64,000 nt of DNA, taken from positions 1,054,001-1,118,000 of the forward strand of contig NZ_JBDQQR010000001.1 of assembly GCF_039888675.1 (NCBI RefSeq), in the 5' to 3' direction. Under the pieces are notes generated by a model. The model worked only from the letters and a program-made list of their open reading frames with translations. It was not told where the DNA came from and did no database searches. Both the position numbers and the translations under genes were made by a program. The first letter of the stretch is position 1, and every line of letters begins with the position of its first letter. This document shows positions 3,808-6,389 of the stretch, piece by piece. The stretch comes from Mesorhizobium sp. CAU 1732 (GTDB lineage Bacteria; Pseudomonadota; Alphaproteobacteria; Rhizobiales; Rhizobiaceae).

Positions 3808-4998
3808 TCATTCAGCCGAGGCACGTTCCAGCCGGCGCGCCCAAAGCGCCGCGACAAGCGCAATCACCGCAGACGCCAGCATGACGAGCAGGAGGGCATG
3901 GCGTGCGTTCTGCTCCGTCAACAAAGCGCCTGCTATCGACGACATCGTCGCACCGCCGGCGACGGATATCGCGCCCGCCAGCCCGGCCGCACTGCCGATC
4001 AATTTGGGTCGAACCGAAATAGCGCCGGCATTCGCACTCGGCATGGTCAGACCGTTGGACACGCCAACGAACAGACAGGGCCCAAACAGAGCCAGAACGT
4101 GATCGACGCCTGCGAAATGCAGGCCCAAGCCCAACATAAGGCCGACACAGGCAATAACGCGCCCCGCGATCAACGTCGTCGTCAGAGGATACCGGCTCGC
4201 GAAGCGTCCGGACAGGAAACTTCCCAACATAAAGCCCGCGGTGATCGACCCCATGTAGAGGCCGAGCATCGCCGGAGAGAGGCCAAAGGCGGAGCTTGCG
4301 GCAAGAGGCGCACCAGTGAGAAAGACGTAGAACGCGCCGACCGAAAACGCCATGCACAGGGCATACGCCCAGAACCGCTTGGACCCGAGCAACTCGGGAT
4401 AGGCACGGAACTGTTCAGCTATCGTACCTGAAGGGGTTCGGTTCGTTTCGCGCAGATCGACCCAGCACAGGGCGAACACGCCGACACCGAATATGGTGAG
4501 GAACCAGAAGCTTGCCCGCCACCCGAAGGCCTCGTCAAGCAGACCACCCAGGCTCGGGCCAAGCATGGGAGCCACGGCCCACGCCATCGCCACATAGCCG
4601 ATCCTGCTGGCTGCCTCCTCCTTGCCGGTCGTATCGCGGATGACTGCGAGCGACACCGCATAGGTGGGCGCGATAGTGGCCTGGATCATTCTGCAGGCAA
4701 GAAAGGTCCAGACGTCCGGAGCAATGATGCATCCGATCGTGGCAACGACGAAAATGGCCAGGCCCCACAGAATAACGGGGCGCCTTCCGAACCTGTCCGA
4801 CAACGGCCCCATGACGATCTGAAGACATGCCGAAACAGCGGCATAGGCGGCCAGCGCGATACCGATCAAACCGTAATCCACACCGAAGTCTGCCGCCATG
4901 TTCGGCAGGGACGGAAGGAAGATGGTGATGGGCAGGATACCAAGCGCCGAGATCAAGATCAGCGTGGACAGGCGGGGAGCGTGCAGGGGTTGTTGCAT
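3808..4998 (-). CDS. MFS drug exporter, DHA1 Bcr/CflA family
   Basis: 396 residues with 12 predicted membrane helices. The MFS signature GPLSDRFGRRPVIL lies in the loop after helix 2, and motif C-like glycine/proline residues (APMLGPSLGGLL) lie in helix 5, typical of proton-coupled drug antiporters of the Bcr/CflA/CmlA branch. Members export bicyclomycin, phenicols, sulfonamides and related compounds. The chosen ATG (MQQPLH) has no obvious Shine-Dalgarno; an in-frame ATG at 5073 would extend the protein by 25 residues encoded through the leader hairpin. Expression is probably governed by the leader peptide and hairpins at 5003-5141. Confidence 0.92.
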   Translation of the reverse strand: MQQPLHAPRLSTLILISALGILPITIFLPSLPNMAADFGVDYGLIGIALAAYAAVSACLQIVMGPLSDRFGRRPVILWGLAIFVVATIGCIIAPDVWTFLACRMIQATIAPTYAVSLAVIRDTTGKEEAASRIGYVAMAWAVAPMLGPSLGGLLDEAFGWRASFWFLTIFGVGVFALCWVDLRETNRTPSGTIAEQFRAYPELLGSKRFWAYALCMAFSVGAFYVFLTGAPLAASSAFGLSPAMLGLYMGSITAGFMLGSFLSGRFASRYPLTTTLIAGRVIACVGLMLGLGLHFAGVDHVLALFGPCLFVGVSNGLTMPSANAGAISVRPKLIGSAAGLAGAISVAGGATMSSIAGALLTEQNARHALLLVMLASAVIALVAALWARRLERASAE

Positions 4999-5002
4999 GT
5001 CT

Positions 5003-5110
5003 GTTCGAGGCGCCGTTTCGGTGAAGCAGGATTTCAGGCAAAAAAAAAGCCCTCGAACGTGTCGGGGGCGCATGGAGCATCGGGCTGGTGCCGTCAGGGT
5101 GCCATGCGCC
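5003..5110 (-). promoter_or_regulatory. Leader with four mutually exclusive hairpin segments before the MFS exporter
   Basis: On the minus-strand RNA four complementary segments occur in order. Segment 1 (5102-5110, GGCGCATGG) lies inside the leader-peptide codons. Segment 2 (5062-5075, CCATGCGCC running into CCCGA) is an exact 9-bp complement of segment 1. Segment 3 (5049-5058, GTTCGAGGGC) pairs with the second half of segment 2. Segment 4 (5003-5010, CCTCGAAC) is an exact 8-bp complement of segment 3 and ends 4 nt before the MFS start codon. 1:2 with 3:4, versus 2:3 alone, is the architecture of ermC-type attenuators. Confidence 0.7.
5040..5069 (-). terminator. Terminator-like hairpin with nine-U tract in the MFS leader
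   Basis: Minus-strand arms GCCCCCGA and TCGAGGGC (one C-A mismatch) close a five-base loop and are followed at once by nine U residues (A run at 5040-5048). Standing 42 bp upstream of the MFS start, it could end transcription before the gene (attenuator). It could instead only be the 2:3 alternative pairing of a translational attenuator. Confidence 0.65.
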
Positions 5111-5141
5111 AGCTTTCTACGATGATGATGGATGCGAACAT
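5094..5141 (-). CDS. 15-codon leader peptide, putative drug-sensing ribosome-arrest peptide
   Basis: ATG at 5141 opens MFASIIIVESWRMAP and stops at 5094-5096; GAGAGAG lies about 8 nt upstream as ribosome site. The peptide has the same length as the ErmAL1 leader (MCTSIAVVEITLSHS, from memory) and the same geometry at its macrolide-dependent stall: Ser4-Ile5-x-x-Val8 in the tunnel with a Glu codon next in the A site. A ribosome paused at codon 8 would reach to about nucleotide 37-38 of the ORF, opening segment 1 (nucleotides 32-40). Short and unannotated in most pipelines. The reading is inference from motif and RNA context. Confidence 0.68.
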   Translation of the reverse strand: MFASIIIVESWRMAP

Positions 5142-5327: not shown

Positions 5328-6389
5328 ATGGGACTGCGCCAGACGATAAGGTTCTGCGCCTCTGCGGACGGCACCCGCATCGCCGTTGCCTCATGCGGCA
5401 AAGGCCCGGTGATCCTGCGCGCGGCGCACTGGCTGAGCCATGTCGACTACGATCTCGAAAGTCCGGTCTGGCGGCCATGGGTGGAGGCACTCTCGGCCCG
5501 CAATAGGTTCGTTCGCTACGACCCGCGCGGCTGTGGTCTGTCGGACCGCCACGCCACCGACCTGACGATCGATGCCTGGCACGCCGACCTCGCCGCCGTC
5601 GCGGCAACGATCGAGGAGCCGCGCTTCGTAATCCTTGGCCTCTCGCAGGGCGGCGCGCTCGGTATCGTGTTCGCGCTCATGCACCCGGAGCGCGTCTCGC
5701 ATCTCGTGCTCGTCAACGCCTACTGTCAGGGCGCGCGAACACGCGCGCAGAGCGACGCCGAACGGCTGGAAGCCGAGACGCTGGTCAATTTCATCCGCAT
5801 CGGATGGGGCCGCGACAATCCTGCGTTCTGCCGGTTTTTCACCAACCTCTTCATCCCGGACGGCACGCCGGAGCAGCATCTCTGGTGGGGTGATCTGGAA
5901 CGCGAGACAGCCACCGCAGACGTCGCGGCGGAGCTTCTGTCCAACATGCAGGGGATCGACGTGCTGGACCTCGCCGCGCAATTGAACGTGCCGACGCTGA
6001 TCATGCACTGCCGCGGCGACATGCGCGTGCCTTTCGACGAGGGCTGCAAGCTTGCGGCCGCCATTCCGGGCGCACGGTTCGTGCCTCTGGAGAGCAAGAA
6101 CCACGTCATCCTGCCCGACGAGCCTGCCTGGGCCGTCTTCCACGCGGAACTCGCGGCATTCCTTGGGCAGGACCTGCCCGCACAGCCGCCGCAGGCCGTC
6201 CGCGACGCCGGATTGACGCCTGCCGAGAGCGCGATCCTGGAACTCGTTGCCGAAGGGCTCGACAACCGCACGATCGCCGAAAAGCTTGGTAAGCACGAGA
6301 AGACCGTCCGAAACCAGTTGTCGGCGGTCTTTGAGAAACTTGGCGTCCACAGCCGCTCGCAGGCAATCGTCAAGTCGCTGTCCCGTTGA
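5328..6389 (+). CDS. Alpha/beta hydrolase fused to a C-terminal LuxR-type HTH
   Basis: 353 residues. Residues ~1-275 are an alpha/beta hydrolase with nucleophile elbow GLSQGG (Ser106), a likely acid at Asp231 (CRGDMRVP) and His259 (KNHVI). Residues ~290-353 are a complete LuxR/GerE HTH (LTPAESAILELVAEGLDNRTIAEKLGKHEKTVRNQLSAVFEKLGVHSRSQA, pattern only). The catalytic triad appears intact, so the protein may hydrolyse or bind a small ester/lactone and regulate transcription. The closest concept is a one-component sensor with an enzyme fold as receptor. It is a single gene, 154 bp ahead of a methyltransferase. Confidence 0.88.
   Translation: MGLRQTIRFCASADGTRIAVASCGKGPVILRAAHWLSHVDYDLESPVWRPWVEALSARNRFVRYDPRGCGLSDRHATDLTIDAWHADLAAVAATIEEPRFVILGLSQGGALGIVFALMHPERVSHLVLVNAYCQGARTRAQSDAERLEAETLVNFIRIGWGRDNPAFCRFFTNLFIPDGTPEQHLWWGDLERETATADVAAELLSNMQGIDVLDLAAQLNVPTLIMHCRGDMRVPFDEGCKLAAAIPGARFVPLESKNHVILPDEPAWAVFHAELAAFLGQDLPAQPPQAVRDAGLTPAESAILELVAEGLDNRTIAEKLGKHEKTVRNQLSAVFEKLGVHSRSQAIVKSLSR

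Follow-up and report, generated by a model that had tools for sequence, protein, structure and literature searches.

We analysed a window of 64,000 nucleotides from Mesorhizobium sp. CAU 1732 (contig NZ_JBDQQR010000001.1, positions 1,054,001 to 1,118,000), and the features described here lie on its minus strand. The gene at positions 4998-3808 (ATG at 4998-4996) encodes an MFS transporter of 396 aa. Its assignment to the Bcr/CflA family, already made when only the sequence itself had been read (hereafter the sequence-only reading), was borne out by a score of 219.7 bits against TIGR00710 (cut-off 200.9); PF07690 also matches, and among chains of solved structure multidrug resistance protein D (2gfp) comes closest in sequence. 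Further upstream, a likely promoter could be read from the sequence, comprising the -35 element TTGACG (5195-5190), an 18-nt spacer and the -10 element TAGCTT (5171-5166); simple consensus scans of the window called no promoter and no terminator here. The promoter-like site is followed by a purine-rich ribosome site, GAGAGAG (5154-5148), and by a leader ORF of 15 codons encoding MFASIIIVESWRMAP, which extends from the ATG at 5141-5139 to the TGA at 5096-5094. In leaders of Kiloniellaceae and Burkholderia, AGGAG occurs in the region of the ribosome site. Within the ORF, the putative control codons ATC ATC ATC GTA (Ile5 to Ile7 and Val8; 5129-5118) keep the register to the stem that Ile/Leu/Val codons have in ilv leaders. 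The divergent gene at 5328-6389 on the plus strand encodes an alpha/beta hydrolase fused to a LuxR-type HTH (PF00561 and PF00196).

Four segments with alternative pairings follow. Segment 1 (GGCGCATGG, 5110-5102) lies inside the leader ORF and is the 5' arm of a nested hairpin, the 3' arm of which is segment 2 (CCATGCGCC, 5075-5067); the two pair exactly over 9 bp. Segment 3 (GTTCGAGG, 5058-5051) pairs exactly over 8 bp with segment 4 (CCTCGAAC, 5010-5003), which ends 4 nt before the MFS start codon and is probably without function. Segments 2 and 3 can pair as GCCC/GGGC plus CGA/UCG with one C-A mismatch between, and together with the nine T at 5048-5040 this gives the shape of an intrinsic terminator, GCCCCCGA-CACGT-TCGAGGGC, at 5069-5040. 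The final three bases of segment 2 (5069-5067) double as the foot of the terminator stem. The ORF with its ribosome site, the pairings 1:2, 3:4 and 2:3, the U tract and the 4-nt gap are thus all present as the sequence-only reading had described them. The folding energy of the leader was compared with that of 200 shuffled sequences, 67 of which folded equally well (z -0.47); since the fold is no stabler than that of shuffled sequence, comparison across species is the sole arbiter of these structures. An ATG at 5073, inside segment 2, opens the MFS reading frame through the terminator (ORF 3808-5073), so a longer MFS protein could arise from read-through transcripts; the same in-frame ATG occurs in the relative L072.

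Among 51 MFS loci from named genomes, 37 have the leader ORF, the stem and the terminator directly upstream. They include loci of Devosia, Roseibium, Paramesorhizobium, Mesorhizobium, Nisaea, Pelagibacterium and Rhizobium, as well as of Kiloniellaceae, Paraburkholderia and Burkholderia. The other 14 have no intact leader directly upstream: at L103 the structure is kept and the ORF altered, at L088 the leader lies about 1.4 kb further upstream with other DNA between it and the MFS gene, L076 has a degenerate remnant, three (L083, L112 and L075) have TPP riboswitches, and eight have neither a leader nor a TPP riboswitch in the stretch searched. The arrangement at a further locus, L194, resembles that at L088, with the MFS gene absent from the stretch examined. 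Four Comamonadaceae orthologs (L105, L107, L109 and L114), in which the leader is absent, have in common an upstream motif of about CTCCTGTTG..ACCCG, recognised by eye. The leaders occur in two forms, type A, the form of the window, with CCATGCGCCCCCGA, and a C8-like type B; in type A the hairpin and the terminator have three bases in common, and in type B the terminator is separate. Both forms occur inside one clade of 18 close MFS relatives, most forks of which lack resolution (the window of type A and L118 of type B are 81% identical). L074 and L080 are identical to L009/L119, and both carry leaders. The window-type MFS gene is accessory, being found in 6 of 297 genomes of the family at E<=1e-120.

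Cross-species comparison indicates that the ORF, the 1:2 stem and the terminator go beyond chance. For 17 type A leaders, 90.2% of the cells of the 1:2 stem and 97.1% of those of the terminator are paired, and all 17 have a T-run of at least 5. Compensating base pairs, which would speak for the hairpins, were found for only one of the two forms. The 1:2 stem of type A has no changes on both sides, and the type A stems, though paired, are too uniform for covariation. The type B outer stem is paired in 100% of the cells of 15 rows (14 MFS leaders and the ilv leader of the window's own genome), and the type B nested hairpin and terminator covary, with 6 pairs and 19 cells altered on both sides, values reached by 8 of 500 shuffles for pairs and by none of 500 for cells, relatedness being uncorrected. 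The promoter position is also partly kept. The motif TTGAC lies 53-60 nt before the leader ATG in 10 of 24 distinct type A leaders (54 nt in the window) and is absent from the 60 nt upstream of 13 Burkholderia leaders and of L079, also of type A. In all 15 type B leaders it lies 36-37 nt before the ATG, a spacing that puts the transcript start probably at the leader ATG; this suggests leaderless leader-peptide transcripts in type B, e.g. in L118, L066 and L101.

The leader of the window has a recognisable kinship with an RNA family in Rfam. RF02502 (Atu_C8), filed there as a Rhizobiales sRNA, matches positions 5142-5033 across the whole model with 30.5 bits (E 3.8e-4), which falls short of the curated gathering cut-off of 50 bits; the type B leader L125, the MFS of which is 50% identical to that of the window, exceeds this cut-off with 107.9 bits. 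At E<=0.01 the family was detected in 290 of 297 genomes of the bacterial family and in none of 14 controls, and translated copies encode leader peptides of the form MKNxxVILVVGRRMGRMV. The genome of the window (G000) itself harbours a full-score copy (L116, C1:3229174-3229055), with MNTTIILVVGRRMGKAV as its peptide and ilvI and ilvH immediately downstream; the window leader ORF aligns in frame with this ilvI leader. Out of 30 RF02502 loci, three (L035, L036 and L038) were read downstream and have acetolactate synthase as the next gene, and 11 further copies, from genomes with two matches, are followed by acetolactate synthase in 10 cases and by the MFS in one (L125). Since the copies read downstream sit before acetolactate synthase or before a window-type MFS, we consider Atu_C8 to be the ilvIH attenuator, and the 'sRNA' as originally seen was probably the terminated ilvIH leader. 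This is in line with excerpts of two papers, one with an 'ilvIH cis regulatory' entry for S. meliloti (PMC2573895), the other describing attenuation of the Caulobacter ilv leader via tandem Ile and Val codons (PMC4117421). In part of the genomes of the family, acetolactate synthase is encoded a second time, behind a separate C8-like leader (L123, L126 and L128); at L128/L134 this second gene looks shortened.

The kinship was also found in the reverse direction, with a covariance model, R1, built from 17 type A MFS leaders. On 46 chosen sources R1 recognised, at E<=0.1, 13 of 16 type B leaders and all four ilv leaders supplied. At E<=1e-6 it matched 16 of 385 genomes in the class, 12 times before a window-type MFS and four times before acetolactate synthase; the latter four leaders, all from family f74 of other alphaproteobacteria, are MHRLVVIVGKWRMGR, MTGVVVILGNTRMGR, MKILVVVVGTTRMGR and MNNVVLIVGKQRMGR. 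Matches in the order (9 of 397 genomes) all lie upstream of a window-type MFS. The genus of one Burkholderia genome gave matches in 34 of 61 genomes, and at 28 of 30 loci from that genus the leader is followed by the MFS (as a long match at 27 and as a partial one at L191), three of these 28 being already in the earlier set of MFS loci; L194 and L204 have no MFS downstream within the stretch examined. For five Burkholderia/Paraburkholderia genomes the MFS leader is the sole R1 match. The model overlooks some type B and ilv leaders; for instance, G313, which contains L074, yielded no second match, and the counterpart of G313, G002, has an RF02502 copy. A missing R1 match, including those in the five genomes, therefore does not mean a missing ilv leader.

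To describe the leader peptides, we collapsed identical ORFs and took the Arg codon at the foot of the stem as the origin for counting residues; L160, L161 (MFS leaders) and L129 (an ilv leader) have no such anchor and are omitted, and in L091 and L098 the stem codon is off by two codons. Branched-chain residues occupy positions -7 to -3 in 56, 71, 78, 89 and 60% of 45 MFS leaders, respectively, with Val at -5, -4 and -3 in 64, 82 and 58%. Among 34 ilv leaders, Ile/Leu at -6 and -5 followed by Val at -4 and -3 is almost universal. The window leader is on the Ile side, with Ile at -7 to -5, Val at -4 and Glu at -3, and some leaders (L081, L103, L157, L175 and L177) have few branched-chain codons. 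The codon GTA makes up 48 of 134 Val codons (36%) in 37 distinct leaders versus 64 of 1,235 (5.2%) in the MFS genes from 49 leader loci (p 1.5e-27, relatedness uncorrected); the MFS gene of the window uses it for none of its 27 Val codons. This strong bias towards a rare codon fits tRNA sensing better than arrest by a peptide and a drug.

Taken as read from the sequence, the order of elements is a promoter-like site, an Ile/Val leader ORF, a nested hairpin starting in the 3' part of the ORF, a terminator and the MFS gene. We consider it likely, judging from the comparisons above, that the leader controls the exporter gene through ribosome-dependent attenuation of transcription, in the manner of the ilvIH (branched-chain amino acid) attenuators. 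The sequence-only reading was correct in proposing a leader peptide with alternative hairpins before the MFS gene, a real regulatory leader kept in relatives, and the transcription attenuator that it had left as an alternative is supported by the conservation of the terminator and by the ilvIH homology. With ample charged tRNA(Ile) and tRNA(Val), the ribosome would reach the stop codon of the leader and cover segment 1, the terminator would form and transcription would stop. When charged tRNA(Ile) or tRNA(Val) is scarce, the ribosome would stall with Ile5, Ile6 or Ile7 in the A site and leave segment 1 free; the nested hairpin would then form and deprive the terminator stem of the three bases of its foot, and RNA polymerase would continue into the MFS gene. 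The pump is thus probably turned on by scarce charged isoleucine or valine tRNA and not directly by an antibiotic.

The geometry of this scheme was followed by folding the leaders with a placed ribosome, the footprint of which was assumed to reach 15 nt past the first P-site base. By this model segment 1 is fully uncovered when Ile5, Ile6 or Ile7 is in the A site, partly covered from Val8 onward and fully covered at the stop codon. The terminator probability in the window is 0.12 without a ribosome, 0.49, 0.72 and 0.55 with the A site at Ile5 to Ile7, respectively, and 0.82-0.83 from Val8 through the stop; by these values a shortage of Ile or Val should raise, and full translation lower, transcription of the MFS gene. 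Equilibrium folding of 13 leaders showed a clear ribosome-dependent switch in the window only and a weak one in L077, L084 and L089. The expected pattern was missing in nine of the 13 (L009, L072, L118, L066, L010, L108 and three ilv leaders), in which the terminator stays high or fluctuates. Without a ribosome, the probability is 0.02 in L084, 0.50 in L089 and 0.82-1.00 in L009, L072, L077 and the analysed type B and ilv leaders. The hairpin and the terminator of type B are separate from each other, and a search for another antiterminator there yielded no well-conserved candidate; the best one, a match of 4 bp, occurs in 12 of 15 rows. Because switching is weak in most other leaders and the search in type B gave no well-conserved antiterminator, we infer the antitermination step from homology and geometry.

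The sequence-only reading had preferred a translational switch of the ermC/ErmAL1 kind, in which a macrolide-bound ribosome halts at Val8 and exposes the MFS start, which would otherwise be hidden by the 3:4 hairpin. Like those systems, the window has a short leader peptide, a hydrophobic Ile/Val stretch and a gene of a drug-pump family; it differs from them in that the terminator is the likely switch, and neither Glu9 nor the start-codon hairpin is conserved. The leader ORF and the Ile/Val run are indeed kept among relatives, which upholds the expected peptide conservation in part, but in the two nearest type A relatives, MSASVIIVGRSRMVP (L072) and MRAVIFIVGSVRMVA (L009), Glu9 is replaced by Gly, and Ser4 is retained in L072 only. 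The window's 3:4 pairing is absent from all 18 relatives tested. Of 300 shuffles, 3 did as well. Two of the relatives can pair this stretch differently, L086 over 8 bases in another part of the arm (equalled in 2 of 300 shuffles) and L087 over 7 bases, CGTTCGG (16 of 300). We regard the window's 3:4 pairing as most likely fortuitous. A ribosome with Val8 in the P site, moreover, would overlap segment 1 by 6 of its 9 nt, with the terminator favoured, so that a stall at codon 8 would promote termination. Together with the homology to ilv leaders, these findings led us to reject erm-type arrest, which we regard as extremely unlikely; drugs may still induce the MFS gene by a route other than peptide arrest.

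One such route would be a general attenuator of translation stress, in which ribosomes are kept off the leader or halted early, the nested hairpin forms and polymerase reads through, so that ribosome-targeting antibiotics would induce the gene with no sequence-specific arrest. This is possible, though clearly less probable than the ilvIH-type attenuator: the ribosome-free terminator is improbable in the window and L084 and intermediate in L089, yet it persists in L009, L072, L077, type B and ilv leaders, and such a mechanism alone needs neither an Ile/Val run in fixed register nor a GTA bias. Precedents are given in an excerpt of PMC7298713, which mentions attenuation of resistance genes by translation inhibition through uORFs in Gram-positive bacteria and a part of the trp leader peptide of S. 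meliloti in multiresistance. The same excerpt reports trans roles for peTrpL, and RF02502 is filed as an sRNA, both of which would suit a terminated leader RNA or peptide acting in trans (cf. rnTrpL/peTrpL), with attenuation secondary. Across genera, however, the leader stays beside acetolactate synthase or the window-type MFS, and the conservation of the peptide is mostly that of the Ile/Val run and the residues coded in the stem, and we hold this very unlikely. That the leader is a leftover, copied from an ilv operon and without its sensing role, is suggested by the degenerate or displaced leaders of L076, L088 and L103 and by the accessory nature of the MFS gene; it seems quite unlikely to us, since leaders from two classes, before MFS genes of about 45-80% identity, still have the register, the GTA bias and the terminator in common.

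The ilvIH-type attenuator of the window thus resembles the ilvIH/ilvBN attenuators of alphaproteobacteria (RF02502; excerpts of PMC2573895 and PMC4117421) in the length of the ORF, the register, the tandem Ile/Val codons, the terminator between ORF and gene and a GCGCATGG..CCATGCGC hairpin, and type B MFS leaders also have a similar promoter distance. It differs in that an MFS transporter and not acetolactate synthase or another branched-chain biosynthesis gene lies downstream, and in the type A overlap of three bases between hairpin and terminator; the MFS leaders as a set, moreover, shift from Ile/Leu plus Val to Val with GTA, the window having Ile-Ile-Ile-Val. We therefore say that the system works like an ilvIH attenuator with a different target. 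With attenuators of the trp type, such as rnTrpL/peTrpL of S. meliloti, it has in common ribosome-dependent transcription attenuation and a leader peptide of fewer than 20 aa, but amino acid, target gene and RNA structure differ, and peTrpL is connected with efflux in trans (excerpt of PMC7298713). Among the titles and abstract openings retrieved from the open-access literature, none gave an account of an ilv-type attenuator before such an MFS exporter. Transporters under tRNA or metabolite control are also found with T-boxes and TPP riboswitches; there an RNA aptamer senses, whereas in the MFS leader the translating ribosome does.

The regulation gives some hints on what the transporter may move. 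A TPP riboswitch lies directly upstream of three MFS orthologs (L083 2300-2416, L112 2306-2422 and L120 1232-1347), and another, in L075 (939-1051), heads an apparent operon of an LLM-type oxidoreductase (by eye) followed by the MFS. Acetolactate synthase requires TPP; one and the same stress could therefore be sensed through the Ile/Val supply and through TPP. We know of no substrate linked to branched-chain amino acids for the window-type MFS clade; our foremost guess at its cargo is a compound connected with acetolactate synthase and the TPP cofactor of that enzyme, e.g. one that inhibits branched-chain synthesis or is related to thiamine. Thiamine uptake is a lead only: thiC occurs in 11 of 24 MFS-bearing genomes with no pattern (and no background rate for comparison) and is absent in G000, G002 and G003, and of 57 genomes searched in the genus of the TPP-type MFS, one has a close ortholog of it. 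Inspection by eye of the MFS neighbourhoods at part of the loci revealed no common partner gene. At the Kiloniellaceae locus L084 (3658-5262, minus strand), an acetolactate-synthase-like TPP enzyme (by eye) is convergent with the MFS gene.

Amino-acid attenuators are the textbook control of biosynthesis operons, and here one form of the ilv attenuator has been transferred, with retuned codons, to a gene of a drug-pump family. That an ilv-type attenuator on an exporter is kept across alpha- and betaproteobacteria is a surprising wiring, and its identity as an ilvIH attenuator explains the Rfam 'sRNA' Atu_C8. More speculatively, and with considerable doubt on our part, the exporter's substrates could be natural inhibitors of the supply or use of branched-chain amino acids, which would make the attenuator an indirect antibiotic sensor that reads starvation. 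If this is true, the candidates would be acetolactate-synthase inhibitors, thiamine antagonists that starve the TPP enzyme, and inhibitors of isoleucyl- or valyl-tRNA synthetase, and the TPP riboswitch of the sister orthologs would read the same stress at another point. The type of attenuator thus hints, in a way that experiments can check, at what an uncharacterised Bcr/CflA clade transports.
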